DNA of 61,900 nucleotides, from assembly GCA_016212005.1 (NCBI GenBank), contig JACRHP010000021.1:1-61900 (forward strand), given 5' to 3'. The notes under the pieces are model-generated. The model made no database searches and was not told where the DNA came from. It saw only the letters and a list, made by a program, of their open reading frames with translations. The stretch is from Candidatus Omnitrophota bacterium. GTDB taxonomy: Bacteria; Omnitrophota; Gorgyraeia; Zapsychrales; Zapsychraceae. The position numbers and the translations under genes are program-made. Shown piece after piece: positions 3,825 to 20,694 of the stretch. The stretch's first letter is position 1; the number at the start of each line of letters is the position of its first letter.

Positions 3825-3828
3825 ACAA

Positions 3829-3887
3829 GTCACAAGGTCACCAGGTCACACGTCACCTGTGACTTTGTGACGTTGTGACTTTGTGAC
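3829..3887. repeat. hairpin with 8-nt iterated arms (locus B)
   Basis: Left words are GTCACA, AGGTCACC, AGGTCACA, CGTCACC; right words are TGTGACTT, TGTGACGT, TGTGACTT, TGTGAC. The two arrays are reverse complements of each other with about 1-2 differences per word. It lies between the aromatase remnant and the MFS gene. Confidence 0.85.
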
Positions 3888-4048: not shown

Positions 4049-4091
4049 TCCCGACCCCCGCTTGCTATTGACAGTTAGCGGGGCGTCGGGA
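4049..4091. repeat. GC-rich inverted repeat at the aromatase duplication junction
   Basis: TCCCGACCCCCGCT (4049-4062) pairs with AGCGGGGCGTCGGGA (4077-4091), with one unpaired base and a 14-nt loop. The right arm supplies the last codons and stop of the intact aromatase, replacing the LAAKK ending seen in the remnant copy. It looks like an element inserted at, or created by, recombination at the gene's 3' end. Confidence 0.7.
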
Positions 4092-4533
4092 CAGACCCTG
4101 CTTCTTTCTCAATCACCTCTTTAAAAATCTTCATATTATGCCGTGAATGTTCATTAATAAAACCTTCTATTTGCTCTGCAGTAAACTTTGTAAATTTCGG
4201 ATCCATGGCAAAATCTTGTATCCACACCATTTTAATCCCTTCAGGAGTGTCGATGTACAGCCAGACGATCTTCATGTAGATAAACGGAAACATCGGCTCA
4301 TGACGGGAAGCCACGGCATAACGGTGTTCTTTATCCAGCCAGCGCTTGGAGACCCAGGACTTGCCGTCCTCGTCGGTCAAGCGGAACGTGATCTCATTTC
4401 CCTTGCGCTCCAGCACCTCCGCCTTGGCGTATTCCTTGCCGAACAACTCCGTCCAGCGCTCAATTCTATTGGAAATATCAAATACCAATTCATACGGCGC
4501 GCTGATCGTGATTTCGTTACGTGTGTGGCTCAT
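4075..4533 (-). CDS. SRPBCC polyketide aromatase/cyclase
   Basis: A 152-residue START/SRPBCC-fold protein with the typical opening (NEITISAPYELVFDISNRI, then ERW) and the long C-terminal helix (FTAEQIEGFINEHSRHNMK). It resembles single-domain aromatase/cyclases such as TcmN/WhiE-VI types, which fold and dehydrate the ACP-bound poly-ketone. Placement downstream of KS, CLF and ACP supports that role. GGAGGGAAT precedes the ATG. The last residues GSVPTPR come from the hairpin at 4049-4091 and are probably not ancestral. Its DNA is more AT-rich than the remnant copy beside it. Confidence 0.8.
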   Translation of the reverse strand: MSHTRNEITISAPYELVFDISNRIERWTELFGKEYAKAEVLERKGNEITFRLTDEDGKSWVSKRWLDKEHRYAVASRHEPMFPFIYMKIVWLYIDTPEGIKMVWIQDFAMDPKFTKFTAEQIEGFINEHSRHNMKIFKEVIEKEAGSVPTPR

Positions 4534-5257: not shown

Positions 5258-6058
5258 TTAAATAATTGCTACCGCTCGGCACCACCCTGCGCCGGCATTC
5301 TTAACTTTAACTGGCAAGCAAGAAACAGTAAATCCAAACGGCTTCGGGATCGCGCCGAGGTTGCCGAGGCGCTCCATATGGCAATACTCCCGGCGCCGGC
5401 CGAGGAAGTGGCACGGCCAGATCTTGGATTTGTCTTTGGTCGTCAAAAATTCCTTGAACATCAGAAAGCACGGCCGGTCGAGGCCGATCGTGTCAACGCC
5501 CATCATTTTGATCCCTTGATCAAGAAGATATTCCACCGCGCTGGGGACCAGCCCGACGTACTTGTTGACATAATCGTCCGTACCCAGAAGTTTATCGCCG
5601 CCGGTGTAAAAGAGCACGATGTCCATGGGCTTGAGCTTGTAATTGATCTTCTTCAAAGCGGCAACGACCTTGTCTTTGTCGATAAAATCCGGAAACTTCA
5701 GGTGGGTAAAGTCCAGCACAACGCCGGGGCCGTAGCACCATTCGAGCGGGACATCCATGATCTGCTTGGCCGGCTTGCCTTCGCACGTGGAGCCATAATG
5801 AAACGGCGCGTCCACGTGGCTGCCCATGTGGACGGAAGAATTGACGATCTCCAAAGAGAGCATTTCGCCGTCGGGGATCTCGTCCTTGGTTGCTACCCGC
5901 TCGCCCTTGTCAAAACGCTCCTGCCCGCCGGGCTGCTTTTGCATGACGACCCAGTTAAAATGCTCCACCCCTTGCGCGTGGGTGATCCGCTCGATCTTGG
6001 CGGCGTGGGTTTCAACGAGGGTGTCGTCGATTGGTAAACTAAGGTCAATAATCTTCAT
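5258..6058 (-). CDS. cyclase-family metal-dependent hydrolase (PF04199)
   Basis: A 266-residue protein of the kynurenine-formamidase/cyclase family. The diagnostic HMGSHVDAPFHY motif (HxGTHxDxPxH type, around residue 78) supplies the metal ligands, and GVDTIGLDRP is the usual downstream block. Family members hydrolyse amides or esters, and several polyketide clusters encode one annotated as a cyclase. A role in ring closure or product release is inferred from position immediately after the ACP gene. ATG start without a clear ribosome site; the upstream gap is entirely hairpin locus C. Confidence 0.85.
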   Translation of the reverse strand: MKIIDLSLPIDDTLVETHAAKIERITHAQGVEHFNWVVMQKQPGGQERFDKGERVATKDEIPDGEMLSLEIVNSSVHMGSHVDAPFHYGSTCEGKPAKQIMDVPLEWCYGPGVVLDFTHLKFPDFIDKDKVVAALKKINYKLKPMDIVLFYTGGDKLLGTDDYVNKYVGLVPSAVEYLLDQGIKMMGVDTIGLDRPCFLMFKEFLTTKDKSKIWPCHFLGRRREYCHMERLGNLGAIPKPFGFTVSCLPVKVKNAGAGWCRAVAII

Positions 6059-6139: not shown

Positions 6140-6415
6140 TTAATGTCCGCACCCGCACCCCGGCCCGTGGCTGGTGCTGCCGGCGGGTTTCTTGGAAGCG
6201 ATAATGGCGACAATCTCATTGAAGGATTGTGTTTTCTTCAGTTCATTGTCCTTGAGCGGGACGCCGAATTCCTTTTTGATGGCGACCGAGATCTCCACCA
6301 TTTCGGTGGAGTCGATCCCCAGTGACTCATCCAGCTTGGCGCCGGGGACGATCTCGCTTTCCTTGATATCGAGCACCTTCTTTAAGACTTCTTTAACCTT
6401 TTGTTCGACGGCCAC
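6140..6415 (-). CDS. acyl carrier protein of the type II PKS
   Basis: A 91-residue ACP. Helix 1 (VEQKVKEVLKKVLDIKESEI) leads to the phosphopantetheine site GIDS, with Ser36 followed by TEMVE. The body ends near residue 77, and a short tail HGPGCGCGH, rich in Cys, His and Gly, is unusual for an ACP. The start is GTG, supported by AAAGGAG at good spacing. It lies directly downstream of KS-beta, the usual KS-alpha/KS-beta/ACP order of minimal type II PKSs. No phosphopantetheinyl transferase or malonyl transferase is in the window. Confidence 0.9.
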   Translation of the reverse strand: MAVEQKVKEVLKKVLDIKESEIVPGAKLDESLGIDSTEMVEISVAIKKEFGVPLKDNELKKTQSFNEIVAIIASKKPAGSTSHGPGCGCGH

Positions 6416-6495: not shown

Positions 6496-7728
6496 TTATG
6501 GTTTCTGCAGCACTATTGCACAGTTTATTCCACCCCTGCCACGGTTAATGACGAGGGCATTCTTGATTTCCTTTGCCTGCGATTTGTTGGGACAATAATC
6601 CAGATCGCATTCCGGGTCCGGCGCGGTCAAATTGATCGTCGGTGGAACTATGCTGTGCTCCATGGCCAAAACGGTTGTGATGACATCCAGCGCGCCGCAG
6701 GCGCCGAGCATGTTGCCGAAAACGGACTTTGGCGCGGAGCAAGGAATTTTATTGGCTTTCCCGTTGAAGACTTGCTTGATCGCCATTGTTTCCGTCACGT
6801 CCCCTAAGGACGTCCCCGCGCCATCGAGACAAATATAATCGATCCGCGCAGGTTCCAGTTGGGCATCATCCAGCGCGATGCGGATGGCACTCGCCAATTC
6901 CTTCCCGTCTTTGGCCGGGGCGATGCGGTCAACGCCATCAGTCGTGGTGCCGTAACCGATGATGTTGGCGTACACGTGCGCGTTACGCGCCTTCACCCGC
7001 TCCTGCGGTTCGAGGATCACGATCCCCGCGCCTTCAGCGATCGCAAACCCGTCGCGCGTTTTATCGAACGGCCGGTACGCGGTCTGCGGCGTATCATTTT
7101 TGTGGGTCAGCATCCCCGAGGTATTGCAGCACAAAAGCGCGTACGGCGTGACCGGCGCTTCCATGCCGCCGGCGATAATAAAATCATTCTTGCCGCGCAC
7201 CAGTGTCCTGGCCGCGTAGGCGATCGCCATCAGCGAGCTCGCCCGGTCAGCGACGACCGTCTTGCTGTAGCCTTTGATCCCGTAATGGATCGAAACTTGT
7301 CCTTGCGGCGCGGCCGGAAACCAGGCCGAGGCCATAAACGGGCTCACGCCCTCTCTTCCTTCGATATACATGTCCCGCAATTCCGTTTCGGCGTAGAGCC
7401 AGCCGCCGATGGCGTTGCCCATGAATATCCCGGCGCGCTCGAGGTTTTCCTTCGTCATGTCGATACGCGCGTCCTGGATAGCCAGTTCGGAGGCCACCAG
7501 CGCCATGTGTGAAAACAGGTCAATTTTTTTCAACAACCGCGACGAGACGTTGCTGTACGCGTCGAGCTCATGCACATGGCCAGCCACATGCGAAGGGTAC
7601 AAAGAAGCGTCAAAGCGCGTGATTTTCTCGACGGCGGAATGCCCGGCCTTGACGTTCGACCAGAATTTGCGCTTGTCGATCCCTGAAGGGGAAACGATAC
7701 CTAAACCTGTGATGGCTATCTTATCCAT
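6496..7728 (-). CDS. KS-beta / chain-length factor-like ketosynthase
   Basis: A 410-residue beta-ketoacyl synthase fold that has lost its catalytic triad. Aligning with the neighbouring KS-alpha, the nucleophilic Cys is Arg162 (VADRASS), the first His is Asp302 (CLDGAG) and the second His is Asn339 (SVFGNMLG), while Lys334 is kept. Loss of the nucleophile in a second KS beside an intact one is the hallmark of the chain-length factor subunit of type II PKSs, which forms a heterodimer with KS-alpha. GGAGG lies eight bases before the ATG. Actinobacterial CLFs usually carry Gln at the Cys position; Arg is atypical. Confidence 0.88.
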   Translation of the reverse strand: MDKIAITGLGIVSPSGIDKRKFWSNVKAGHSAVEKITRFDASLYPSHVAGHVHELDAYSNVSSRLLKKIDLFSHMALVASELAIQDARIDMTKENLERAGIFMGNAIGGWLYAETELRDMYIEGREGVSPFMASAWFPAAPQGQVSIHYGIKGYSKTVVADRASSLMAIAYAARTLVRGKNDFIIAGGMEAPVTPYALLCCNTSGMLTHKNDTPQTAYRPFDKTRDGFAIAEGAGIVILEPQERVKARNAHVYANIIGYGTTTDGVDRIAPAKDGKELASAIRIALDDAQLEPARIDYICLDGAGTSLGDVTETMAIKQVFNGKANKIPCSAPKSVFGNMLGACGALDVITTVLAMEHSIVPPTINLTAPDPECDLDYCPNKSQAKEIKNALVINRGRGGINCAIVLQKP

Positions 7729-8374: not shown

Positions 8375-9637
8375 CTATCCCCCATTAAATCTCTTTAAAA
8401 CCATCGCCGAATGGATGCCGGAAAATCCGCTCGAGGTCTTGAGCATGCAGTTGACCCTCTTCTCCCGCGCCTTGTTCGGGATGTAATCCAGATCGCATTG
8501 CGGATCTGGAAATTCCTGATTGATCGTCGGCGGCAGAACGTTTCGCTCGAAGATCATTGCGCCCAGCGCCAGCTCAATGCCGTTAGCGCCAGCCAAGGGA
8601 TGGCCGATCATGGACTTAAACGAACTGATTGGAACTTTATACGCGTAATCGCCGAAGACCATCTTGTAGGCGTTGGTCTCAAAGACATCGTTTTGCCGTG
8701 TCGAGGATCCATGCGCGTTGATGTAATCGATCTCTTCCGGCTTGACCTTGGCATCCGCTAAAGCCAAACGGATACAGGACGCCTTGGCGTCGCCTTCCGG
8801 TGGCAGATCAGTCATGTGATAGGCGTTGTTGGTCGTGCCGAAGCCGGCGATCTCGCAGTAGATCCGCGCGCCGCGGCGCCTGGCGTGTTCCAATTCCTCG
8901 ACGACCAAAAGTCCGGCTCCCTCGGAGATGACAAAGCCGTTACGTTTGGCGTCAAACGGCCGCGAGGCTTTTTCCGGATGATCGTTATGCACGGACAAGA
9001 CATTGACCGTGTCGAACGCGCCAAAGGTGATCGGTGTGATCGGCGCTTCCGACGCGCCGGTGATCATGATGTCCACGTCCCCGTCGGCAATGGCCTCAAA
9101 CGAAAACCCGACGGAATCCGTGCCGGCGGTGCAGCCGGTGGAAATCGTGTTGCACACGCCCTTCAAACCGTATTTCGCGGAAATCTCGCTCGAGGGCGTA
9201 TTGAACATCGAGGCGTCATAAAGATCAGGCCGGACGATCGTCGGGTCGATGGGCTTCTTGCCACTGTCGGTGACCAGCGCAAATTCCTCTTCCATATATT
9301 TCGTCCCGCAGATGGCATTGGCCAGCGACACACCCATGCGCTCGCGGTTGATTTTCTTTAAATCAAGGCCGGAATCTTCCAGCGCCATGCGCGCGGCCAC
9401 CACCGCGAACTGGACGTAACGGTCCATGCGGATGGCCTCCTCGCGGCTCAAGCCCAGGGCGATCGGATCAAAGTCGTGGACCTGCGCGGCGATCTTGGTG
9501 TTAAACAAGGACACGTCAAACTCGGTGACGCGCCTGACCGCCGAGACGCCGTTGATCATATTTTTCCAGCACGCCTCTTTCCCGACACCGTTGGGGGAAA
9601 TAATCCCGACTCCTGTAACGACAACCCGCCTTGTCAT
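8375..9637 (-). CDS. KS-alpha, ketosynthase of the type II PKS
   Basis: A 420-residue condensing enzyme with a complete active site: Cys169 (STGCTAG), His309 (NAHGSST), Lys341 and His346 (FKSMIGHPLAG). The N-terminal VVVTGVGIISPNG and GFVISEGAG blocks are also family-typical. It catalyses decarboxylative condensation of malonyl-ACP and would dimerise with the inactive partner at 6496-7728. FabF of fatty-acid synthesis is the alternative, but a dedicated inactive partner, aromatase and cyclase nearby favour a polyketide role. The gene starts four bases after the ketopantoate-reductase-like gene ends. Confidence 0.9.
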   Translation of the reverse strand: MTRRVVVTGVGIISPNGVGKEACWKNMINGVSAVRRVTEFDVSLFNTKIAAQVHDFDPIALGLSREEAIRMDRYVQFAVVAARMALEDSGLDLKKINRERMGVSLANAICGTKYMEEEFALVTDSGKKPIDPTIVRPDLYDASMFNTPSSEISAKYGLKGVCNTISTGCTAGTDSVGFSFEAIADGDVDIMITGASEAPITPITFGAFDTVNVLSVHNDHPEKASRPFDAKRNGFVISEGAGLLVVEELEHARRRGARIYCEIAGFGTTNNAYHMTDLPPEGDAKASCIRLALADAKVKPEEIDYINAHGSSTRQNDVFETNAYKMVFGDYAYKVPISSFKSMIGHPLAGANGIELALGAMIFERNVLPPTINQEFPDPQCDLDYIPNKAREKRVNCMLKTSSGFSGIHSAMVLKRFNGG

Positions 9638-9641
9638 TTGC

Positions 9642-10655
9642 CTAAGCCCTTTCTCTATTCAATTCAAATGCTGCCTTGATTTCCTCGACACTAAAATATT
9701 TTTTACGGCCTTCCACCTGGTGGACCATCTCAACAATTTTCGCGTTCAGTACGGCTTCCTGCGCAGGGACGCGCGCCATCCTCACCACCTGGCCGTTGAT
9801 GTAATCGATCTCGCTCGCCCGGCCGCGCATGATGCTCTGCAGGATTGAGCCGTACAAAGGCTCCTTGCTTAAAGTCGTCAAAGTCTTGTTGATGATCCCG
9901 GCCGCCTGGTCGAGCGGCATGTTCGCCATCCCGTAAACGCGCTCCGCCGGGAATTGCGGCAGGGAAACCAGCCGGACGCCGTTTTTTTGCAGAATACCGA
10001 CCCCTTCTTTAAGGAGCAGGATGCTCAACCGGCACAGGTCCATGTCCGCGAAAGTTTCCTGCATGGATTTTCCCGTCAAGGCCGGGATACAGTTGTTGAA
10101 ATTGACGAACAGTTTCAGCCACTTCATCCCGACGATATCGTCCGCAGCGACGATGTTAAACCCTTTTTTCAATACCCCGGCGATCGTATCGAGTTTTTCG
10201 TCTCTCGGGCCGAAAGGCTTGCCGATGATCCAGTCACCATCAAAATTAAAGACCACTTCTCCCGGGCTGGTATATGTCGCGCCGAACATGACGATGCTGC
10301 TGTAAATGTTCTGCGCCGGGAAATACTGGCGGAGGATATTGTCAGCCTGCACGCCGTTTTGCGAGCTTAAAATACAGCTGCCTTGCAGGGATTGACGGTT
10401 CGCGCGGCAAACGTCCTCGATGTCCTGCGTCTTGACGGTAAAAATGACCAGATCATAATGCTGCTGGTCCAATTCCGGACGAACGGCGATCTGGATCCGC
10501 TCTTCGCCGCGCGTGCCGCGCACCTGCAAACCGTTATGTTCAATGGCCTGTGCCTGTTCCGGCCGCGCGAGGAGGACAACCCTTTCGCCCGCCTTCGTCA
10601 AGTAAGCGGCGACGACGGACCCGATCGCGCCGGCACCAATAATGGCGATGTTCAT
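9642..10655 (-). CDS. ketopantoate reductase-like oxidoreductase (PanE/ApbA family)
   Basis: A 337-residue protein with an N-terminal Rossmann motif (IAIIGAGAIGSVVAAYL) and the C-terminal helical domain containing the substrate Lys (GMKWLKLFVNFNNCIPAL) and a late SEIDYINGQVV block. That block and the Lys are typical of 2-dehydropantoate 2-reductases. TAGGAG precedes the ATG. Only four bases separate it from KS-alpha, so it is probably part of the cluster and may reduce a keto group of an intermediate instead of ketopantoate. True panE activity cannot be excluded from sequence alone. Confidence 0.8.
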   Translation of the reverse strand: MNIAIIGAGAIGSVVAAYLTKAGERVVLLARPEQAQAIEHNGLQVRGTRGEERIQIAVRPELDQQHYDLVIFTVKTQDIEDVCRANRQSLQGSCILSSQNGVQADNILRQYFPAQNIYSSIVMFGATYTSPGEVVFNFDGDWIIGKPFGPRDEKLDTIAGVLKKGFNIVAADDIVGMKWLKLFVNFNNCIPALTGKSMQETFADMDLCRLSILLLKEGVGILQKNGVRLVSLPQFPAERVYGMANMPLDQAAGIINKTLTTLSKEPLYGSILQSIMRGRASEIDYINGQVVRMARVPAQEAVLNAKIVEMVHQVEGRKKYFSVEEIKAAFELNRERA

Positions 10656-10665
10656 ATAAACTCCT

Positions 10666-10738
10666 ACCGCTAAATACCGCGAAATTTAACGCAAAATAAC
10701 GCGTCTTTTTGCGTAAATTTTCGCGTGATTTCGCGATT
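10666..10738. repeat. hairpin with 10-12-nt iterated arms (locus F)
   Basis: Left words are ACCGCTAAAT, ACCGCGAAATTT, AACGCAAAAT, AACGCG; right words are CTTTTTGCGT, AAATTTTCGCGT, GATTTCGCGATT. The same design as the other loci but with a longer, less regular word. It reaches the stop codon of the PCP_red gene and ends before the ribosome site of the reductase gene. Confidence 0.8.
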
Positions 10739-11012
10739 ATTTGGGTTCATACTTTTTATAATCAAACCCCACCCCGTCCAGGAGCCTGATCATCAGGCTG
10801 TAAAAAGTCATCGGGACCTCCGAAAAAAAAGCCCGGACAATATCCTCTTCTTCCACCATGTGAGAGCCGCGCTGTTGCGCGAGCATCGGCGCCTTTTTGT
10901 CGACGACGATCTTGGCGATCTCCCGGTGGAACAGCGGGATCCTGGTGATCATCTTCTCGTACTTCTGGCGGGCGATGGGTTCCCAATCTATTTTTATTTG
11001 TACATTTGACAT
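10737..11012 (-). CDS. PCP_red-domain small protein
   Basis: A 91-residue protein resembling the small helical domain found at the C-terminus of the BchB/ChlB subunit of dark protochlorophyllide reductase (PCP_red): IDWEPIARQKYEKMITRIP, then FHREIAKIVVDKKAPMLA, then VEEEDIVRAFF. Stand-alone copies occur in non-phototrophs; their role is not settled. The adjacent upstream gene is a BchE-type radical-SAM enzyme, so the two may work together. AAAGGA precedes the ATG. No other chlorophyll gene is present. Confidence 0.65.
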   Translation of the reverse strand: MSNVQIKIDWEPIARQKYEKMITRIPLFHREIAKIVVDKKAPMLAQQRGSHMVEEEDIVRAFFSEVPMTFYSLMIRLLDGVGFDYKKYEPK

Positions 11013-11135: not shown

Positions 11136-12626
11136 CTAAGCCGTGGCCGTCACGCGTGAATTTGCCTCCCACTTGGAGATATTGTCCATAAAGTCTTTGA
11201 CGCAGACCTTGACCTTGTCATGATAATTGCTGGAGAAGATCCGGTGGATACGTTCCGGTTTGGAATAATACTCGCGCATGCACCAGGCGCCGAGGCGTCC
11301 GACTTCCTCGATCGTCAAATGGTCCGTCGGGACAACCGGATGCTGAAAATCCCAATCTTTTAGATTGATCTTGTCCGGGTCGAACCAGCCCTTTTTGATC
11401 CCGTAGCGCCAGTCCGGGGAGTTGGGGACCGGGGTGAGGTAATCCAGGGCGAAGATGTCCGGGTCGATCTCATCAGCGATCTGCAGACGCTTCTTGATCT
11501 TTTCTTCCGTATCTTCTTTAAGTCCGATCAAAACGGTGCCGACGCTGCCGATATCGTTCTCCCGCAGGATCTGGACCGTCTTCTTGATCTGGTCGACAGT
11601 CACGCCCTTGCCCTGTTTGGCCAGGGTCATATCGTCTTCGACCTCAACACCCGTCAACGCCAGGAACAATCCCGCCTTCTTCATCAACGGCAGGATGTCG
11701 TGCTGGCTGATCCATTGGTCGGCCCGGCCCAGGCAGACCCAATCGATCTTGTTGCCGCGCTTGATCTTCTCGTTGCAAAACTCGATCATCGCCTGCGTGT
11801 CGGTATTGAACGCGTCGTCCTGGAACACGATCGTCGTGATCCCGTACTTTTTCTCCAGCAGTTCCAGTTCATCGACGATGCGTTTGCCGCTTAAGCCCCG
11901 CCACGACGTGAAATCCTTGGTCGCGGTGCGGCTGTCGTAGAGCGCCCATTCGTAACAGAAATGGCATTTGCCCGGGCACCCGCGCGAGGTCATCAGCTCC
12001 GCGAACGGCTTCCAGTACGTGTGCCCGACGTATTTATCCATCGGGAAAAGGTCGTACGCCGGCATCGGCAGGACGTTAAGATCAGGGATCAACTCCCGGT
12101 GCGGTCCGACCACGATCGTCCCATCTTTACGCCGCGAGACAAGGCCCGGGATCTCCTCCCGAAGGGAGCCTACCGGGCGCTCGTCCTTAGGGCTGCCGTT
12201 CATATTTTTAAGCAGGTCTTCCATCGTCAGCTCCGCCTCCCCGATCATGATGTAATCCAGCGTCGGATTCAGGCGCATCTGGCGTTCCCAGTCGCCGGAA
12301 TACCACAACCCGCCGGCAACGGTCTTGACCTGCGGCATGGCTTCCTTAATAAGGCGCAAGCCTTCGTTGAAATACCAGATGACCGCGGCACCGCAAGTCG
12401 AGTGCAAAAGCTCGCCGACAAAGACCATGTCCGGCTTGGTGTCCTTGGCGTATTTGACCATGGCGTCCCAGTCCATCTCCAGCGCCCGGCAGTCCAGCGC
12501 GTCGACCTCGGCGAGCTTTTTCTCGCGCAAGTAAGCGGCCAGCTGCGCGTGCATCTGGTTGGCGGCCAGGTGATACCCGTGTGAATCCCAGGCTTTAAGC
12601 GGTGGCGTTAAAAATAGCACTCTCAT
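11136..12626 (-). CDS. cobalamin-binding radical SAM enzyme, BchE-like
   Basis: A 496-residue protein with an N-terminal B12-binding-type Rossmann domain (about residues 1-160) followed by a radical-SAM barrel with the 4Fe-4S motif CPGKCHFC (CxxxCxxC). The layout matches the BchE/HpnR/P-methylase class, members of which perform cyclisations, methylations or oxygen-independent oxidations and release 5'-deoxyadenosine. Its ATG overlaps the stop of the upstream nucleotidyltransferase (ATGA). Position between the deoxynucleoside-salvage genes and the KS genes suggests a tailoring role. A 23-bp repeat encodes RPVGSLREE in frame near residue 155. Confidence 0.88.
   Translation of the reverse strand: MRVLFLTPPLKAWDSHGYHLAANQMHAQLAAYLREKKLAEVDALDCRALEMDWDAMVKYAKDTKPDMVFVGELLHSTCGAAVIWYFNEGLRLIKEAMPQVKTVAGGLWYSGDWERQMRLNPTLDYIMIGEAELTMEDLLKNMNGSPKDERPVGSLREEIPGLVSRRKDGTIVVGPHRELIPDLNVLPMPAYDLFPMDKYVGHTYWKPFAELMTSRGCPGKCHFCYEWALYDSRTATKDFTSWRGLSGKRIVDELELLEKKYGITTIVFQDDAFNTDTQAMIEFCNEKIKRGNKIDWVCLGRADQWISQHDILPLMKKAGLFLALTGVEVEDDMTLAKQGKGVTVDQIKKTVQILRENDIGSVGTVLIGLKEDTEEKIKKRLQIADEIDPDIFALDYLTPVPNSPDWRYGIKKGWFDPDKINLKDWDFQHPVVPTDHLTIEEVGRLGAWCMREYYSKPERIHRIFSSNYHDKVKVCVKDFMDNISKWEANSRVTATA
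12154..12176 (-). repeat. 23-bp palindromic repeat inside a CDS, copy 2
   Basis: Identical to 850-872 and read in the same frame (P-V-G-S-L-R-E-E) in an unrelated protein. Here it sits in a surface-like linker between the B12-binding and radical-SAM parts (SPKDE before, IPGLVSRR after). Shared wording between two unrelated families argues for insertion of a mobile palindrome. Confidence 0.75.
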
Positions 12627-13431: not shown

Positions 13432-13461
13432 GTTCATCCTCCCCTATTTTCAGTCGCTGGA

Positions 13462-14958
13462 TTAAAACCAGTTCGCCACGAGAGGTTTTCCCCCTGGCGT
13501 TTGATCCGTGCAAATGTGCTTGCTCTGCATATATTCTAAAAGCCCTTCATGCCCAAGCTCACGGCCGAAACCGCTTTGTTTGTATCCGCCGAAGGACGCC
13601 GCGTTATAAAACCCGCCGTAGGTATTGATCCAGACCGTGCCCGTCTGAAGTTGTTTGGCGACACGGTCGGCTTTGATTAAATCCTTAGTCCAAACACAGG
13701 CCGCCAATCCAAAATCGGAATCATTGGCAATAGACACGGCCTGCTGCTCGCCTTTAAACTTTATGACCGCCAGGACCGGGCCGAAAATCTCCTCCTGGGC
13801 AACGCTCATCTTGTTCGTTACATTTTCCAGAATGGTCGGCTCAAGAAAAAATCCCTTTTTAAGCTTCTCGTCTTGGGGAATTTTTCCGCCGCAAATAACC
13901 TTAGCGCCTTGCTTGAGGGCTTCCTCTATATATTGCAGTGCTTTGGCCTGCTGTTCCTTACTGACAACCGGCCCAAATTCCGTCTGATAATCCAAAGCGT
14001 TGCCGATCTTTAGTTTCTTGGTCTTCTCGACCAAAAGCTTCATGAATTTATCGTAGATGCTTTCCTCTAATAAAAGCCGTGAGCCGGCCGTGCACATCTG
14101 TCCCTGGTTCATAAAAATCGCGGACATCGTCCCGCCGACCGCGGTTTCCAGATCACAATCGCCGAAAACGATATTCGGCGATTTGCCACCCAATTCCAGG
14201 CTCAATTTTTTGGTCGTCTGGCTTGCCAGACGCATGATTTCCTGCCCGGTCTGTGTTCCCCCGGTAAAACTGACCATGTCCACATCTTTGTCCGTGACCA
14301 GAAGTCGCGCGGCATCTTTATTAGTCGTGGCCACGACATTCAAAATTCCAGCAGGCAATCCAGCTTCCTTGACGATTTGCGCCAAGCGCATGACCGACGC
14401 GCAGCCGACGGATGACGGTTTAAGGATAACGGCATTTCCGGCGATTAACGCGGGCGCCATCTTCCACGCCGCCATGATCAAAGGATAATTCCAGGGAATA
14501 ATGCAGGACACAACGCCCATCGGTTCAAAGGTCGTCAAACTTTTTACCTGATCGGTGACAGAATTCTGCCGGTCTTTAGCCACCGTCTCGAGACTTCCGA
14601 AATATTCAAAACAATCCGCGGCCGTCGGGACATCGATGAACGATGATTGTTTCAAAGTCTTGCCGATATTCGCTGATTCCAGGTCTGCCAGTTCTTTGGC
14701 GTGCTTACGGATCAGGTCGGCGATCTTCCTTAAATAAATGCCGCGCTCCGCGACACTCATGTTGCGCCAAGTGCCTTGGTTAAATTCCGTCAACGTTGAC
14801 GAAATTGCTTTCTTGATATCTTCCGCTGTGGCATCAGCGACACGGGCAAAGGCCTCTCCCGTGGACGGATTGACCAACTCAAAATATTTCCCGGACGCCG
14901 CGCCGATAAGCTCGCCGTGGACCAACAGATCAAATTGTTGTTTCTCGACCGTCAACAT
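13462..14958 (-). CDS. aldehyde dehydrogenase (NAD(P)-dependent)
   Basis: A 498-residue member of the ALDH superfamily with the cofactor region PWNYPLIMAAWKMAPAL, SFTGGTQTG, the catalytic Glu in LELGGKSPN and the nucleophile in GQMCTAGSRLL. It oxidises an aldehyde to an acid. It directly follows the aldolase gene, so the aldolase's aldehyde product (acetaldehyde if the substrate is 5-deoxyribulose 1-phosphate) is the likely substrate. I chose the ATG at 14958, which has AGGA five bases upstream; another ATG lies two codons earlier. Confidence 0.9.
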   Translation of the reverse strand: MLTVEKQQFDLLVHGELIGAASGKYFELVNPSTGEAFARVADATAEDIKKAISSTLTEFNQGTWRNMSVAERGIYLRKIADLIRKHAKELADLESANIGKTLKQSSFIDVPTAADCFEYFGSLETVAKDRQNSVTDQVKSLTTFEPMGVVSCIIPWNYPLIMAAWKMAPALIAGNAVILKPSSVGCASVMRLAQIVKEAGLPAGILNVVATTNKDAARLLVTDKDVDMVSFTGGTQTGQEIMRLASQTTKKLSLELGGKSPNIVFGDCDLETAVGGTMSAIFMNQGQMCTAGSRLLLEESIYDKFMKLLVEKTKKLKIGNALDYQTEFGPVVSKEQQAKALQYIEEALKQGAKVICGGKIPQDEKLKKGFFLEPTILENVTNKMSVAQEEIFGPVLAVIKFKGEQQAVSIANDSDFGLAACVWTKDLIKADRVAKQLQTGTVWINTYGGFYNAASFGGYKQSGFGRELGHEGLLEYMQSKHICTDQTPGGKPLVANWF

Positions 14959-14982
14959 ATTCATCCTACTCAACAGGTACCT

Positions 14983-15067
14983 GCTGCCCCGGCATTCTCT
15001 AAATCGATGGTATTGCCGGGACACGCTGCATTCCTGTCTTCGTTATCACTCGACAGGAACTTGCTGC
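14983..15067. repeat. duplicated aldolase 3' end with a small hairpin between copies
   Basis: On the minus strand GGCAGCAAGTTCCTGTCGAG at the true end of the aldolase is repeated about 60 bases later as GGCAGCAGGTACCTGTTGAG, just before the aldehyde dehydrogenase ribosome site. Between them CCCGGCAAT pairs with ATGCCGGG. The second copy still carries a TGA in the old frame. It looks like an insertion that duplicated the gene's last 20 bases. Confidence 0.6.
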
Positions 15068-16062
15068 CAAAGTTCAAAAACGCGGCTGCAAGGCGCGTAC
15101 CATTTTGAAATCTTCGCAAAGTCCCCCCGTAAATTCATCTTTTTCTGAGTTGTGGCCACAAACGGATCTATTTCCCGGTTGAACACCGCCCGCCAGACAT
15201 TTTCCGGCGCGGTGATCAAAAATTCGGCGTTCTCGTCGTGACTGACGTTGGCGATACGTCCGTTCTCGAACCGGAAACTATATGTCTGCCCCGTCTCGTT
15301 TAACTTGACCGCCAGATCCATCGTCATCTTCGTATTCTCGCCGAGATCTTTCATCTGGGCATCCGCGTTGACAAGCTTGACGATGTCGTTGATCTGTTCC
15401 TGGGAAAATAGTTTATATTTTTTGCCCCCAGTCTCCAGCCCCCGGTCCCCAGCGATCTGGTGACTGGTGACTGGTGACTGGTGACTATACAGTCTACTGA
15501 TCGCGTCTGTCTTCACCGCCTCTTCCAGCGCCTGGATGAGCAGAAAACAATCAAAAAGTTTTTCTCCCTTGGCCGCCACACCGTGATTACGCAAAACTAC
15601 GATATTATTCTTCTTAAATCCTTCAACCACCGGCCCCGCGTCCGTCACCGCCGGCGTTGCTTGCGGGATCCCTCTAATCTCGCCCAGATAGAACTTCGCC
15701 TCAAAAATCCTCGGCACAAACGTTTCATTCGCCAAAAAATAAGCGTTGGTATACGTCGTGTGCGTATGAATGACCGCTTGCGCGTCCGGGAAATTCTTGT
15801 AAATTTCCGTGTGGAGCAATTTCTCCGTCGACACATTTCCATGGTCATGTAGGGGCGGTTCGCGAACCGCCCCTACGTTCACTGCCAGAATATCTTTTTC
15901 TTCCAGATTCCCCAGGCAGGTCCCGTGGGCGGTGAGCAGGATGGTGTCCTTGTCTATCCGGCGGCTGATGTTGCCATTAAGCCCGCTGGCGAGGTCCTTG
16001 CGCCACAAAAGCTGGCCGATGGCGATCATTTCTTCTTTAAAGTGTTGAAACTGGGCTTTCAT
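15046..16062 (-). CDS. class II aldolase/adducin domain fused to an SCP2-like domain
   Basis: A 338-residue protein. The N-terminal half is a zinc class II (fuculose-1-phosphate type) aldolase with GLNGNISRR, the acidic residue in STEKLLHTE, the metal pair HTHTTY (about His99 and His101) and NHGV (about His160). The C-terminal 100 residues (FRFENGRIANVSHDENAEFL, then ITAPENVWRAVF, then LRGDF) resemble a sterol-carrier SCP2 domain, an unusual fusion. The start at 16062 overlaps the previous stop (TAATG). Two repeat-derived stretches are in frame: a 28-bp palindrome (15849-15876) and a 63-nt array (15424-15486). Likely reaction: retro-aldol cleavage of a 5-substituted ribulose 1-phosphate to DHAP and an aldehyde. 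Confidence 0.82.
   Translation of the reverse strand: MKAQFQHFKEEMIAIGQLLWRKDLASGLNGNISRRIDKDTILLTAHGTCLGNLEEKDILAVNVGAVREPPLHDHGNVSTEKLLHTEIYKNFPDAQAVIHTHTTYTNAYFLANETFVPRIFEAKFYLGEIRGIPQATPAVTDAGPVVEGFKKNNIVVLRNHGVAAKGEKLFDCFLLIQALEEAVKTDAISRLYSHQSPVTSHQIAGDRGLETGGKKYKLFSQEQINDIVKLVNADAQMKDLGENTKMTMDLAVKLNETGQTYSFRFENGRIANVSHDENAEFLITAPENVWRAVFNREIDPFVATTQKKMNLRGDFAKISKWYAPCSRVFELWQQVPVE
15424..15486. repeat. 7-nt iterated hairpin array inside the aldolase CDS (locus K)
   Basis: Nine 7-nt words in perfect register: GCCCCCA, GTCTCCA, GCCCCCG, GTCCCCA, a central GCGATCT, then GGTGACT four times. The first four are degenerate reverse complements of the last four. The total of 63 nt is 21 codons, so the reading frame is kept. 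It lies in the linker between the aldolase and SCP2-like domains. Confidence 0.85.
15849..15876. repeat. 28-bp perfect palindrome inside the aldolase CDS
   Basis: The halves GTAGGGGCGGTTCG and CGAACCGCCCCTAC are exact reverse complements. It is read in frame as V-G-A-V-R-E-P-P-L-H and splits otherwise conserved aldolase sequence (LEEKDILAVN before, DHGNVSTEKL after). It shares the GTAGGG ends, 28-bp length and Val-Gly frame with the element at 17430. Confidence 0.9.
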
Positions 16063-16601
16063 TACTTGCGTATCTCCGTGATATATTTTTTCGGCAGCCA
16101 TTCAACCAGAGGGACATATCCCTTGATATTCTGCGGCGCCACTTTGATCCCCTTAAAATAAAAAATGTCTTTTTGTCCGCCCAGCAAACACGACTCCTTG
16201 CTCGCCGGATAAACATAGACCGGCACGTTGTGCCGCTTGGCCAGAACGCCGACGACCAAACTCCCGATAGGACACAGCGCCCCTTGCTCATCCACCGTCT
16301 GGCAAGCCAGCCAGACTTCCTTGACCAGGTTCCGGTAGAATAAAAATCCGGCCATATTATCCGCGATCAAAGTCGGCTTGATTTTGCGCCGCAGAAGTTC
16401 CCGGCAAGTCGCCTGCGCCGATTCCAGGCTCGGGCGGCCTTCCATCACGAACAGTTCCGTACCGTTGCCGGGCTTGACCGCGTCAAAAACGGACGGCTCA
16501 AAAACGCCGTGCAGCAAAACGACCGACCCCCGGACGTCATCCAGGAACAAGTCACCCGCCGTTTTGTGTTCTTCCTTTAATTGTGTCTCAAGCGCGCACA
16601 T
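16062..16601 (-). CDS. half-size eIF-2B/MtnA-like protein, catalytic residues absent
   Basis: A 179-residue protein equivalent to the C-terminal Rossmann half of MtnA/eIF-2B-alpha: LFVMEGRPSLESAQATCREL, then KPTLIADNMAGFLF, then GSLVVGVLAKRHNVPVYV. At the position of the MtnA nucleophile (THCN in the upstream gene) it has LLHG, and where MtnA has SDRSCANGD it has CQTVDEQGA, so both catalytic residues are missing. It starts one base after the upstream stop and ends in a TAATG overlap with the aldolase. It may be a regulatory partner of MtnA or have another function. Confidence 0.7.
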   Translation of the reverse strand: MCALETQLKEEHKTAGDLFLDDVRGSVVLLHGVFEPSVFDAVKPGNGTELFVMEGRPSLESAQATCRELLRRKIKPTLIADNMAGFLFYRNLVKEVWLACQTVDEQGALCPIGSLVVGVLAKRHNVPVYVYPASKESCLLGGQKDIFYFKGIKVAPQNIKGYVPLVEWLPKKYITEIRK

Positions 16602-16602
16602 T

Positions 16603-17691
16603 CTACTTCGCCTCAAAACTTTCGTTTGGAGGCTTCGTAGAATAGTTCTGCGAAGCTGAAACGTGAAAACTTTTCAGCGAAGCACGAACATCAAGGGCGA
16701 TAGCCTCCGTCACCAGCTCATGCGGCACAACGTCGAAGCCGGGATAAAATCCCGACACCACACCGCTGACGACTTTTTTATTTAAATAAGTCAGCAACTC
16801 CTGCGGGTTACGGATCTCCACAGGGATGTCCTTACCCGTCTTGATTTTGTCCGACGGCTGGGTCAGGACGTAAAACGGGATTTGAAATTCACTGGCCAGG
16901 ACCGCGATCTGGTACGTGCCGATCTTGTTGGCAAAATCCCCGTTGGCGCAAGAACGGTCCGACCCGACGATGACTTTGTTGACCAGCTTGTCCGCCATCA
17001 CGGAACCAATCGCGTTATCGGCGATGAGCGTCACGTCAGCACCCATGCGCTGCAGTTCCCACGCGGTCAATTTCGACCCCTGAAAATACGGCCGCGTTTC
17101 CGTCGCGAAGAAATGAAGATGTTTATTTTGCTGCTGCGCGATACGCGCCGCCATAGCCAATTCACCGCTGACGTTGCAATGCGTCAGAACGCTGTCGCCG
17201 TCTTTAAGGACTTCGGCGATCTTGCGCACCCGATCCAAGCGTCGGCCACGGATGCCTTGAAGATATCCATTGATGCATTTGGGAACAAATATCCGGATAT
17301 CGATATTTTGTTCAATAGCCTGCCGCGCCCAGTTCACAACGAGCGAAGTGACTTCCTCAAAAGGAAACGTCGGGCGGCTTTTGTTCAGCGCGTCGGCAGT
17401 TTTTTCAATCCGATCTAATAATTCCTTTTGTAGGGAACGCATATCTGCGTTCCCTACGCTATTCATTTCCAATAAAAATGTATTCATCACAACCAGAAAT
17501 TGCCCAAAGGCCCGGGTCTTCATCTGCCGGATGACATCAACGGCCTGCTTCGTGTTCTTGACCTTGATATAACGCAGTTTCTGCGGGATCCGGGTCTCAT
17601 CCAGGACCAAAAGGGTATTGCCCTTGAGCCTGGCCGGCCAAAAAAGGGGCGATTCTTTTATCTGGCTTGTAGTCGTATCGCGCTTGCTCAT
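16603..17691 (-). CDS. mtnA: MtnA-type sugar-1-phosphate isomerase
   Basis: A 362-residue aldose-ketose isomerase of the methylthioribose-1-phosphate isomerase family. Cys172 in LTHCNVSGE and Asp245 in IVGSDRSCANGD are the two catalytic residues, and ETRPYFQGSKLTAWELQRMG and FANKIGTY are conserved. Family members also act on 5-deoxyribose 1-phosphate in the DHAP shunt. The upstream nucleoside phosphorylase overlaps it by ATGA. The palindrome at 17430-17457 adds V-G-N-A-D-M-R-S-L in the N-terminal domain, in frame. The symbol denotes the family; the real substrate is uncertain. Confidence 0.85.
   Translation of the reverse strand: MSKRDTTTSQIKESPLFWPARLKGNTLLVLDETRIPQKLRYIKVKNTKQAVDVIRQMKTRAFGQFLVVMNTFLLEMNSVGNADMRSLQKELLDRIEKTADALNKSRPTFPFEEVTSLVVNWARQAIEQNIDIRIFVPKCINGYLQGIRGRRLDRVRKIAEVLKDGDSVLTHCNVSGELAMAARIAQQQNKHLHFFATETRPYFQGSKLTAWELQRMGADVTLIADNAIGSVMADKLVNKVIVGSDRSCANGDFANKIGTYQIAVLASEFQIPFYVLTQPSDKIKTGKDIPVEIRNPQELLTYLNKKVVSGVVSGFYPGFDVVPHELVTEAIALDVRASLKSFHVSASQNYSTKPPNESFEAK
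17430..17457. repeat. 28-bp palindrome inside the mtnA CDS
   Basis: GTAGGGAACGCA and TGCGTTCCCTAC are exact inverted arms separated by 4 nt. It is read V-G-N-A-D-M-R-S-L in the same frame, relative to its GTAGGG end, as the palindrome in the aldolase gene. The interior sequence differs from that element, so these are two members of a size class, not copies. Confidence 0.85.
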
Positions 17692-18476
17692 GCCGTCTTT
17701 TGAGATAACTCCAATTCCTTGATAAGTGAAAGGGCGATATCTACGATAGAAGCCTCGGCCATGTAATAGCCGGGGTTAAGAAATCCCATCTCGCCGGTGA
17801 TGACGTTATCGCTGACCGCCATCAGGACCGCCGCGGGGATCTTGTAGCCCTGACAGATCGTCAAAAAGGCAGCCGTTACCATATCCACGGCGATCGCGCC
17901 CTGGTCGACGGCCTTGCCGACAACTTCCCGGGTCTCCTTTAATATGCAATCCGTGGTCCAGCAACAGCCCACATGCACCTTGCGGCCCAGGGCCAACGGA
18001 GATTTCAGCGCTTTTTGCGTGACCTCCGTCAACTCTTTCGTCAATTGCGCGTCGGCTGTGGGGACGAAATTTTTATCCACATAATATTGCGTCACGCCCT
18101 CGCCTTTGAGCGCAGTTGTGGCAATGATCAGATCTCCAACCTTGATATCCTCGCGCAGAGCCCCGCAGCTGCCCACGCGGACCATCGCTTTGACCTGCGC
18201 GTTGCACAAAATTTCCGTAGTGATAGCCGTGTCCGCGGCGAAACGCCCGCCGTTGATCGTGGTCAGCGGGATCCCTTCATACTGCCCCGTATACATCGTA
18301 TATTCCATGAAGCTGAAATTCTTGACCGGATTTTTCATCTTCTTGACGATGGCATCCGCTCTTTCTTTGGGCCCCGGAACAAGGGCATACTTGCCGACGT
18401 CTTTGGGCCGCAACTGCACCATGTTCATCAGGTCCTTGCCGGTCATGTGGACTTCTTTGCGCATTTGGGTAGTCAT
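17688..18476 (-). CDS. nucleoside phosphorylase (PNP_UDP_1 family)
   Basis: A 262-residue hexameric-type nucleoside phosphorylase. LVPGPKERADAIV is the phosphate loop, VRVGSCGALREDIKVGDLII the family signature, and VDMVTAAFLTICQ the late Glu/Met region in variant form. It splits a nucleoside with phosphate into base and ribose-1-phosphate derivative. The overlap with mtnA (ATGA) indicates that the sugar phosphate goes straight to the isomerase, as in MTA or 5'-deoxyadenosine salvage. Uridine phosphorylase activity is the main alternative. GGGAGA precedes the ATG. Confidence 0.85.
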   Translation of the reverse strand: MTTQMRKEVHMTGKDLMNMVQLRPKDVGKYALVPGPKERADAIVKKMKNPVKNFSFMEYTMYTGQYEGIPLTTINGGRFAADTAITTEILCNAQVKAMVRVGSCGALREDIKVGDLIIATTALKGEGVTQYYVDKNFVPTADAQLTKELTEVTQKALKSPLALGRKVHVGCCWTTDCILKETREVVGKAVDQGAIAVDMVTAAFLTICQGYKIPAAVLMAVSDNVITGEMGFLNPGYYMAEASIVDIALSLIKELELSQKTA

Positions 18477-18489
18477 ATTTTTATCTCCC

Positions 18490-18554
18490 GTTAATTGTTA
18501 ATGGTTAATTGTAAATGGTAAGAAAATATTCACCATTAACTATTTACCAATTGC
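18490..18554. repeat. hairpin with 7-nt iterated arms (locus G)
   Basis: Left words are GTTAATT, GTTAATG, GTTAATT, GTAAATG, GTAAGAA; right words are CATTAAC, TATTTAC, CAATTGC. The right arm runs into the last codons and stop of the ligase gene, and the left arm ends just before the phosphorylase ribosome site. Confidence 0.8.
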
Positions 18555-20053
18555 TGTTTCAACAATTCCTTATCTATCTTCCCTGTCCGGTTTTTGGGCA
18601 AAACGGAGCGTATTTCAACCGATTGCGGTACTTTAAAATGCGCCAGATGTTCTTTCGCGAAATACCGCAAATCCTCCGAAGTGACATTAGCGCCATTTCT
18701 TAAAACGACAAATGCCTTCACCGTTTCACCGCGCAAGGAATCCGGCACTCCGATCACAGCGGTTTCAGAGACCGATTCATGTTTCTGCAAAGCCGCTTCT
18801 ACTTCGGGAGCATAGACGATCTGCCCCGCGACCTTGATCATTTCTTTCTTGCGCCCGACGATATAGAGAAATCCCTCCTTATCAAAACGCCCCAGATCAC
18901 CCGTGTACAGCCAGCCGTTCTGTTTGACCGCGGCGGTTCCCTCCGGATCTTTATAATATCCTTCCATCACAACCCAGCCGCGGATAGCGATCTCGCCAAT
19001 CTCTCCCCCCGGGAGTTCGCGGTCGTTTTCATCAAGAATCTTGATCTCACAATTGGGTGCGGGCTTGCCGACACTGGCAATATTGGCGCTGTTTAAAGGC
19101 GTGACTGTGTTCGGGGGACACGTTTCCGTCATACCCCAACCATTGAGCAGTTTGGCATTGGGACAATACTGATGAAAGCGTTCCATGATCTCCGGCGAGC
19201 TTGGCGCGCCGAAAACAACGACCCAGCGTAAAGAAGAAAGATCGAATTTGTCGATCTGTTTAAGCGTGAGGATGGCCATGTACATCGCCGGGACGATATG
19301 AAAACAGGTGACCCGATATTTGGCAATATTCTCCAGGAACTCATACGGATTGAACCGTTCCATCAACGCGACGGTAATGCCAAAATGAACACAATTCTGG
19401 ATATAAATAAACCCGCCGATATGGCTCAATGGGATGGCGGCCAACTTCACGTCCTTGTCGGTCAAGTCGACAAAATGTTTCATGGCCTCGGGCGAACCGT
19501 CCAGATGTTTGTAATTTAAAAGGATCCCCTTCGGCTTTCCGGTCGTTCCCGAGGTGTACATGATCAAGGCCGGATCGCTGTCGTTTATTTTCACTTCAGG
19601 CAAACCGGATGTGGGGGCGGCCATTGCGTCTTCATAACGAACGATGTTGCCTGAAGCCGCTTCGCCCCGGCACAAAATGATCTTCTTGAGGGTTGGGACC
19701 GCTTTCTGGATTTGTTCAAAGGAAACGTCGTTTTGCTGACTGGCGATGAGGATTCTGGCTTCAGAATGTTGGAGGCAGGATATTAATTCATCCGTTTTCA
19801 ACATAAAATCCAGCGGCACTCCCACGCATCCCAAATGAAAACAGGCCAGATAACTATAAACGTACTCGGGGCAATTGGGAAGATAGATGGCAATTTTGTC
19901 GCCCTTTTGCGCGCCGTTGGCCAAGAGCGCGTTCGCCAAACGTAAAGACGTCTCCCGCAACCGGGCAAATGAAATGGCTTCGCCCTTAAAAATAATGGCC
20001 GGCTTATCCGGAAATCTGCTTACCGTATTGTCTAATATTTCCTTGATGTCCAT
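18536..20053 (-). CDS. class I adenylate-forming acyl-CoA ligase
   Basis: A 505-residue AMP-forming ligase with the P-loop YTSGTTGKPKG, the aromatic-loop motif NGWGMTETCPP, the hinge GWLYTGDLGRFDKEG and the C-terminal catalytic Lys in PKNRTGKIDKELL. It activates a carboxylate to an acyl-AMP and then an acyl-CoA. As first gene after the cluster promoter, followed by phosphorylase, isomerase, aldolase and aldehyde dehydrogenase, it could activate the acid they produce, perhaps as a PKS starter; that link is inference. I start at the ATG at 20053 (GAGG eight bases upstream), not the TTG before it. Confidence 0.88.
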   Translation of the reverse strand: MDIKEILDNTVSRFPDKPAIIFKGEAISFARLRETSLRLANALLANGAQKGDKIAIYLPNCPEYVYSYLACFHLGCVGVPLDFMLKTDELISCLQHSEARILIASQQNDVSFEQIQKAVPTLKKIILCRGEAASGNIVRYEDAMAAPTSGLPEVKINDSDPALIMYTSGTTGKPKGILLNYKHLDGSPEAMKHFVDLTDKDVKLAAIPLSHIGGFIYIQNCVHFGITVALMERFNPYEFLENIAKYRVTCFHIVPAMYMAILTLKQIDKFDLSSLRWVVVFGAPSSPEIMERFHQYCPNAKLLNGWGMTETCPPNTVTPLNSANIASVGKPAPNCEIKILDENDRELPGGEIGEIAIRGWVVMEGYYKDPEGTAAVKQNGWLYTGDLGRFDKEGFLYIVGRKKEMIKVAGQIVYAPEVEAALQKHESVSETAVIGVPDSLRGETVKAFVVLRNGANVTSEDLRYFAKEHLAHFKVPQSVEIRSVLPKNRTGKIDKELLKQQLVNS

Positions 20054-20075: not shown

Positions 20076-20126
20076 ACTAGTAAAATTTTACTAGTCTGAT
20101 TTTAGTAAAATACCTGAATATGTCAA
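20076..20126 (-). promoter_or_regulatory. promoter and palindromic operator of the cluster
   Basis: On the minus strand TTGACA (20121-20126), 16 bases and TAAAAT (20099-20104) form a strong sigma70 promoter. A perfect 20-bp palindrome, ACTAGTAAAA plus TTTTACTAGT (20076-20095), covers the predicted start site. A second 13-bp palindrome (ATTTTA-G-TAAAAT, 20099-20111) covers the -10. Overlap with the promoter implies repression, and the PadR-type regulator encoded just upstream is the obvious candidate to bind. Confidence 0.8.
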
Positions 20127-20178: not shown

Positions 20179-20694
20179 TTAGCCGAGGGTTTCCATCAGC
20201 CGGCCGATAGACCGGATTTCAGCCTCAACCAGATCCAGATCATGGTCCAAAATGACATCGACGTGTTTCTGGGAGGTCTTCATTGTCTTTTGGAGCCCCT
20301 GGAGGTCGCGGCGGATGCGTCTTAAAAAAAGAATTCGCCCGCGCAGTTGCCGCTTGGCGATCTTTTTTTCTACATAAGGCAGAAAATAAAGCGACAGATC
20401 AATGTTAAAATACGGCCGCTCGATGGATAAAAAACTTTCCGTAATAAGATGGCCAAATATTTTCTCACCCTTGGAGGTCAAGCTGTAGACATATTTTTCC
20501 GGCCAGCGGCCTTCGCGGCCGACATCCTTCTTGATAAGGCCAAGCTTCTCCATCTTCTTTAAAGGATAATAGATCGACTTGATCTTGAGGCCGACAAAAG
20601 GAAAAAGTTCTTCCTCGATAAGGCGTTTGATCTCGTAGCCGTGTTTCGGACCGTCCTTTAATAGGCCTAAAAATAATAATTCATGTTCGATCAT
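20179..20694 (-). CDS. PadR-family transcriptional regulator
   Basis: A 171-residue regulator. The N-terminal winged helix ([20 protein letters not shown], then [17 protein letters not shown], then [11 protein letters not shown]) is typical of PadR proteins, followed by a C-terminal helical dimerisation region. PadR-like proteins usually repress neighbouring genes and release DNA on binding a small aromatic effector. It overlaps pyruvate kinase by ATGA, so it is co-transcribed with pyk, but the palindromic promoter beside its 3' end points to control of the 18.5-20 kb operon. Confidence 0.85.

Follow-up and report, generated by a model that had tools for sequence, protein, structure and literature searches.

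The window analysed here is a 61,900-nt stretch of a Candidatus Omnitrophota genome (GTDB class Gorgyraeia, order Zapsychrales; contig JACRHP010000021.1 of assembly GCA_016212005.1, numbered C83 in a draft genome of 1.8 Mb), which encodes a block of seven genes, running from an acyl-coenzyme A (CoA) ligase to a radical S-adenosylmethionine (SAM) enzyme, beside the genes of a type II polyketide synthase (PKS). This block may be a module resembling the dihydroxyacetone phosphate (DHAP) shunt that is built into an Omnitrophota biosynthetic cluster, the chances of this pathway type being judged even. Its assignment to the shunt is incomplete, because key residues are missing from the entry enzyme and the cluster is known from its genes alone. 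A chance neighbourhood of the block and the PKS genes is excluded.

Enzymes of the block

The gene order given in an earlier note on this DNA is borne out, as all seven genes lie on the minus strand and their families agree with Pfam and NCBIfam (Table 1). The Pfam families are, in order, an AMP-binding ligase, PNP_UDP_1 (a nucleoside-phosphorylase-fold protein, hereafter NP), IF-2B/MtnA twice (the isomerase and a half-size protein), Aldolase_II, Aldedh, and B12-binding with Radical_SAM. The overlaps reported earlier are found as well, namely ATGA between NP and the isomerase, TAGAATG between the isomerase and the half-size protein, and TAATG between the half-size protein and the aldolase, and these junctions place the likely starts of the ligase, the half-size protein and the aldolase at 20053, 16601 and 16062, respectively.

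With residue roles taken from B. subtilis MtnA and FucA/DrdA, residues C172, D245, R60, R106, Q204, N255 and K256 of the isomerase are invariant in 93 of 93 sequences (40 from the order and 53 from the rest of the class), while E93, H112, H114 and H173 of the aldolase, numbered from a longer open reading frame (ORF) start at 16101, are invariant in 89 of 89 (35 and 54). The catalytic Cys and Glu of the aldehyde dehydrogenase are likewise invariant (33 sequences). The gene order and the invariant catalytic residues of the isomerase and the aldolase support the earlier proposal that the order of the enzymes matches the DHAP shunt.

The isomerase belongs to the MtnA family rather than the ribose-1,5-bisphosphate isomerase family, scores below the NCBIfam MtnA cut-off (TIGR00512; 210.1 vs 279), and is not located among methionine-salvage genes. 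Its neighbour, previously described as an MtnA relative, is indeed a member of the IF-2B/MtnA family with a fold like the C-terminal part of MtnA, but it is only half-size, starts downstream of the region with the catalytic Cys and has no catalytic Asp. This half-size protein is conserved across the order, is absent in family f15 of the class, and is probably a partner subunit of the isomerase. The aldolase carries a C-terminal SCP2 lipid-transfer domain, which goes beyond the earlier description.

In the proposed route, the chemistry of the B12 radical-SAM enzyme would supply an adenosine that is 5'-deoxy or 5'-substituted; NP would strip it of its base to give a ribose-1-phosphate, and the MtnA-like isomerase, aided by the half-size subunit, would convert this into a ribulose-1-phosphate. 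The residues present are consistent with the latter activity, as well as with the predicted splitting of the ribulose-1-phosphate by the class II aldolase into DHAP and an aldehyde, which the aldehyde dehydrogenase would oxidise to an acid to which the ligase may add CoA. In the known shunt, 5-deoxyribose-1-phosphate is converted to DHAP and acetaldehyde (PMC6079011). The block and the shunt (drdK-drdI-drdA or mtnP-mtnA-ald2) have in common a putative phosphorylase-type entry, an MtnA-family isomerase with Cys and Asp, a class II aldolase in which Glu and three His are present, and paralogy to methionine salvage (PMC6079011, PMC12632272). Unlike the shunt, the block contains a divergent NP, a non-catalytic half-size MtnA and an SCP2 domain on the aldolase, adds a dehydrogenase and a CoA ligase, and is firmly embedded in a biosynthetic cluster. 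The fluoroacetate supply of Streptomyces cattleya employs the same enzyme types (nucleoside phosphorylase, isomerase, aldolase and aldehyde dehydrogenase) on a 5'-modified adenosine; of the annotated genes of the present cluster, none was recognised as fluorinase-like, and a radical-SAM gene is found instead.

Linkage across the order and the class

A scan of approximately 85,000 species genomes with an alignment of the half-size protein returned 41 loci, nearly all of them titled Omnitrophota, Omnitrophica or Aceula (an Omnitrophota genus), with one titled Planctomycetales and one only 'bacterium'. The locus titled Planctomycetales bacterium (L027; SBBO01000006.1) contains the same Omnitrophota cluster and gene order, and its title is probably a mislabel. 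The 41 loci share one common order, i.e. ligase, NP, isomerase, half-size protein, aldolase, dehydrogenase, radical-SAM enzyme, DUF2621, ApbA, ketosynthase (KS), chain-length factor (CLF), acyl carrier protein (ACP) and cyclase. Among 81 genomes of the order, 54 contain an orthologue of the half-size protein and 56 contain the CLF; both occur in 51, one without the other in 3 and 5, respectively, and neither in 22 (Fisher p = 4e-12, uncorrected for shared ancestry). In several genomes with either gene alone, the locus lies near a contig end. As the p-value ignores shared ancestry, rearranged gene orders are the better evidence of linkage.

Such rearrangements occur throughout the class. A profile of the SCP2-aldolase matches 155 of 384 sampled genomes of the phylum, about 100 of them from the same class and outside the order, and comparison of the neighbourhoods of 55 such class loci revealed the same genes in at least three arrangements, with all genes of the block on the aldolase strand at each locus examined. 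Family f15 has the order PKS, radical-SAM enzyme and amidohydrolase, followed by NP, isomerase, aldolase, dehydrogenase and ligase. Family f38 has the ligase and NP at the regulator end and the PKS genes mid-cluster, and the opposite end is occupied by the isomerase, half-size protein, aldolase and dehydrogenase. The block is thus probably a built-in step of one Omnitrophota biosynthetic pathway rather than a set of chance neighbours. A lack of NP in f38 was considered and rejected: the gene either sits at the ligase end, at a distance of about 12-16 kb in several genomes, or occupies another genomic site. Several f38 clusters also contain a class IV aminotransferase-like gene directly ahead of the isomerase (L090, 7191-8003; L093, 11669-12484; L094, 17561-18361).

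The radical-SAM gene is present in 44 of 46 loci with at least 8.5 kb of flank on each side (16 of 17 in the order and 28 of 29 in the rest of the class). A strictly fixed place for it was rejected, as three loci of the order (L049, L057 and L062) are without it at that site, their genomes containing a homologue at another location. The top models for this enzyme are TIGR02026 and TIGR03471, both below cut-off. Within the order (loci L024-L064), the same slot holds two divergent types of radical-SAM enzyme with about 60% mutual identity, and the neighbouring genes show no such split.

In other genomes, the block co-occurs with the radical-SAM gene and usually with type II PKS genes, but five loci (L096, L097, L113, L120 and L140) contain the block, the ligase and the radical-SAM gene with PKS genes absent nearby. 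The earlier note suggested that the block may feed or detoxify for the PKS; given these five loci, feeding the PKS cannot be its sole role. The gene lists of L096, L097, L113 and L120 include genes for an RND-type transporter (named by eye) and envelope proteins alongside, and in some of them accA-like and PadR genes upstream. Genomes G188, G201, G189 and G220 give FabF-level matches to CLF only, and G292 and G179 contain low-similarity KS pairs.

The entry enzyme, the substrate and alternative routes

NP resembles DeoD, uridine phosphorylase and hexameric 5'-methylthioadenosine (MTA) phosphorylase by sequence and fold. It retains the equivalents of DeoD His4, Arg24, Arg87, Ser90 (as Ser or Thr) and Asp204, its purine-type Asp223 and His10 are conserved, and two of three phosphate Arg are kept. 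Several observations nevertheless weigh against the proposed route, and against a simple shunt that starts from 5'-deoxyadenosine. Where DeoD has Glu181, which contacts the ribose diol, every NP sequence has Val (40 of 40 from the order and 45 of 45 from the rest of the class), as read from an alignment with B. anthracis DeoD, and where DeoD has Arg43, the phosphate Arg of the neighbouring subunit, the same sequences have Met, Phe or Leu class-wide, as read from an alignment with S. pyogenes uridine phosphorylase. These losses are the weakest link of any nucleoside pathway. The proposed oxidation and CoA activation are matched by a dehydrogenase and a ligase gene, but the nearest solved relatives of the ligase are fatty-acid and 4-coumarate CoA ligases rather than acetate-like enzymes, and in f38 the ligase is located with NP and separated from the dehydrogenase. 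Moreover, the known shunt makes no use of an SCP2 domain or a half-size protein, and the genome encodes a separate MTA phosphorylase (contig C12) and a canonical MtnA (contig C25), so that the copies in the cluster are not the housekeeping ones. The separate genes are compatible with a shunt, as the Drd enzymes are likewise paralogues of methionine salvage (PMC6079011). The NP subfamily is further marked by an invariant Asp-Met-Val in place of the usual Glu-Met-Glu.

The substrate put forward in the earlier note, 5'-deoxyadenosine, is thus unsupported or open, given the missing Glu and Arg of NP and the separate MTA phosphorylase and MtnA. Its conversion via acetaldehyde and acetate to acetyl-CoA is the simplest option and is retained tentatively, at somewhat below even chances.

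A further pair of genes bears on the intermediate. An LsrF-type gene is present in 13 loci with the block, 12 of which also contain a zinc dehydrogenase, placed between the aldolase and the dehydrogenase, after the dehydrogenase, or before the PadR gene. The LsrF-type protein of an f38 locus (L090) exceeds the NCBIfam LsrF cut-off (361.9 vs 297), aligns well with LsrF of E. coli and retains its active-site region, and the copies reaching that far contain the KTY motif with the catalytic Lys. The zinc dehydrogenase is closest to ketose reductase and to sorbitol, threonine and arabinitol dehydrogenases. LsrF yields DHAP and acetyl-CoA (PMC7828210), and its substrate, 3-hydroxypentane-2,4-dione-5-phosphate, can be deduced from structure to be 5-deoxyribulose-1-phosphate oxidised at C4; the dehydrogenase and LsrF would therefore reach the same end products by another route. 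By family chemistry, some lineages may thus use the zinc dehydrogenase and the LsrF thiolase to convert the same ketose phosphate into DHAP and acyl-CoA. The pair independently fits a 5-deoxyribulose-1-phosphate intermediate in a predicted conversion of a 5-deoxypentose to DHAP and acyl-CoA, although it is found in a minority of the block loci only; its presence also in genomes without the block tells against the proposed route. The LsrF branch of autoinducer-2 (AI-2) breakdown has the LsrF-type thiolase and its products in common with this pair (PMC7828210). Unlike in AI-2 breakdown, LsrF here accompanies the block or the zinc dehydrogenase in a minority of lineages, and no lsr operon context is seen in the loci read.

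Three other interpretations of the pair were rejected. LsrF is not confined to genomes bearing the block, as the pair is located elsewhere in Omnitrophota genomes in L193, L194 and L195, two of them (G007 and G015) without the block; nor does the pair replace the ligase, which is present in f38 as well, at the opposite end of its cluster. A locus of G078 (L191, contig C73), which contains an MtnA-like isomerase, the half-size protein, zinc dehydrogenase and LsrF and no aldolase, is not a clean functional replacement, as the catalytic Cys of its isomerase is changed to Tyr; it is apparently a decayed cluster remnant, with an MFS gene and beside two giant ORFs. Three order genomes without the block (G048, G005 and G033; loci L101, L102 and L103) encode a shorter aldolase relative that apparently has no SCP2 domain and is not accompanied by further genes of the block.

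The SCP2 domain, the fatty-acid/coumarate-like ligase and the exporters in PKS-less operons hint at a larger hydrophobic substrate. An alternative to 5'-deoxyadenosine salvage, considered unlikely, is that a lipid or polyketide (R) receives a 5'-deoxyadenosyl group from the radical-SAM enzyme, that NP removes the adenine, and that the isomerase and the SCP2-aldolase release DHAP to leave R-CH2-CHO, which is then oxidised and activated with CoA. Such trimming would add a two-carbon acid to R and so place all the genes on the product path, and it would agree with the lipid-binding SCP2 domain, the altered NP pocket, the type of the ligase, a radical-SAM gene closest to the BchE and HpnJ models, the pairing of an RND-type exporter with the module in PKS-less operons, and dedicated paralogues despite housekeeping MTA phosphorylase and MtnA. 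It has a precedent in hopanoid side-chain synthesis, where HpnH attaches a 5'-deoxyadenosyl group to diploptene and HpnG, a PNP_UDP_1-family enzyme acting after the radical-SAM step, removes the adenine (PMC12583986). However, the block continues to an isomerase and an aldolase, HpnH is from a different radical-SAM family, NP does not reach the HpnG model (TIGR03468; 46.5 vs 187.1 bits cut-off), and no hopanoid genes were identified in the cluster. We know of no B12-type radical-SAM enzyme that adenosylates, which also counts against trimming; in addition, the known LsrF substrate bears only a methyl group, no R has been identified, and the loss of the diol Glu is not accounted for either.

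It is more doubtful still that the genes do not encode consecutive steps, NP and the half-size protein having taken new polyketide roles and only the isomerase and aldolase pair performing sugar chemistry; the residue losses of NP and the split of f38 into ligase-NP and isomerase-aldolase-dehydrogenase halves would suit this, but most lineages keep all genes on one strand of one cluster and the purine-type Asp of NP is invariant. Least probable, by a little, is the use of ordinary ribose-1-phosphate, formed from a nucleoside and converted via ribulose-1-phosphate to DHAP and glycolaldehyde, and then via glycolate to glycolyl-CoA as perhaps a PKS starter unit, which would fit the retention in NP of the His by which DeoD and uridine phosphorylase contact the 5'-OH, and a weak match of the aldolase to an archaeal ribulose-1-phosphate aldolase model, but which disagrees with the MtnA family of the isomerase and leaves the radical-SAM coupling and the LsrF/zinc dehydrogenase pair unexplained.

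Cluster surroundings, regulation and significance

The cluster extends to about position 600 and contains the hallmarks of a type II PKS, namely a KS with Cys-His-His, a partner CLF without the Cys and a stand-alone ACP, together with a membrane protein gene between the cyclase and SRPBCC genes. Two small genes, one of them for an AbiEii-like nucleotidyltransferase, separate the dehydrogenase and radical-SAM genes and look like an insertion, as their homologues were undetected in other loci of the order; the gene at 12623-13201 has homologues in none of these. Pairs of nucleotidyltransferase-type genes (AbiEii-like, DUF6036/DUF2204) are apparently inserted at 12623-13437 and at 7783-8368, the second between KS and CLF, and the gene at 7783-8223 has homologues in two other order loci (L047 and L048).

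Table 1. Annotated features of the cluster and the adjoining regulatory region, with positions in the window
Feature	Position	Strand	Basis or remark
PadR-family regulator gene	20179..20694	-	Pfam PF03551; adjoins ligase gene in related loci also
Perfect palindrome ACTAGTAAAATTTTACTAGT ahead of ligase gene	20076..20095	.	Putative operator
AMP-forming acyl-CoA ligase	18536..20053	-	PF00501, PF13193
NP, divergent subfamily	17688..18476	-	PF01048
MtnA-like aldose-1-phosphate isomerase (putative)	16603..17691	-	PF01008
Half-size MtnA-like protein without catalytic residues	16062..16601	-	PF01008 C-terminal half
Class II aldolase with C-terminal SCP2 domain	15046..16062	-	PF00596, PF02036
Aldehyde dehydrogenase	13462..15024	-	PF00171; true start probably near 14964
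B12-binding radical-SAM enzyme, BchE/HpnJ-like	11136..12626	-	PF04055, PF02310
Small DUF2621-like protein	10737..11012	-	Pfam match below cut-off; position conserved
ApbA/ketopantoate-reductase-like oxidoreductase	9642..10655	-	PF02558, PF08546
Type II PKS ketosynthase (KS alpha)	8375..9637	-	Closest solved match actinorhodin KS; Cys-His-His conserved
CLF-like KS, active-site Cys missing	6496..7728	-	Sequence
ACP	6140..6415	-	PF00550
Putative cyclase	5258..6058	-	PF04199; position conserved
SRPBCC polyketide cyclase/dehydrase-like protein	4075..4533	-	
MFS transporter	2691..3833	-	PF07690
Short-chain dehydrogenase (SDR)	1895..2674	-	PF00106
Amidohydrolase-family protein (AMH)	600..1523	-	PF04909; adjoins NP or isomerase in families f15 and f38

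The palindrome ACTAGTAAAATTTTACTAGT, of which the genome contains a single perfect copy, is found with at most 3 mismatches ahead of the ligase gene in 30 of 38 order loci, versus 0 of 728 control windows. It is likely to be an operator, and the PadR-type regulator perhaps binds it. A site with 3 mismatches (G000:C23:37786-37805; L166) adjoins genes similar to the FAD and 2Fe-2S subunits of molybdenum hydroxylases (named by eye), and it is possible that these genes are co-regulated with the cluster.

The available part of a KS-CLF catalogue already includes Omnitrophica KS-CLF pairs, and the type II PKS clusters of uncultured phyla described there have KS, CLF and ACP in common with the present one, with no mention of a sugar module in that part (PMC10132072). 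Within a partial coverage of the literature, no published account of the combined cluster was found, nor one that brings together 5-deoxyadenosine, MtnA, aldolase and a polyketide cluster.

In an entire class of uncultured bacteria, a pathway that salvages a by-product, or one closely modelled on it, appears to have become a fixed part of a biosynthetic cluster. Salvage of 5'-deoxyadenosine, if true, would offer strong genomic evidence that a specialised pathway has the recycling of a radical-SAM by-product built into it. Should the module instead trim an adenosyl-linked product, the SAM-derived adenosyl group would serve as a two-carbon building block, trimmed to a carboxymethyl (acyl-CoA) extension with release of adenine and DHAP, which seems improbable on present evidence and, if true, would be a new way of building carbon-carbon bonds. 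The module also gives clues to the product of this Omnitrophota cluster.

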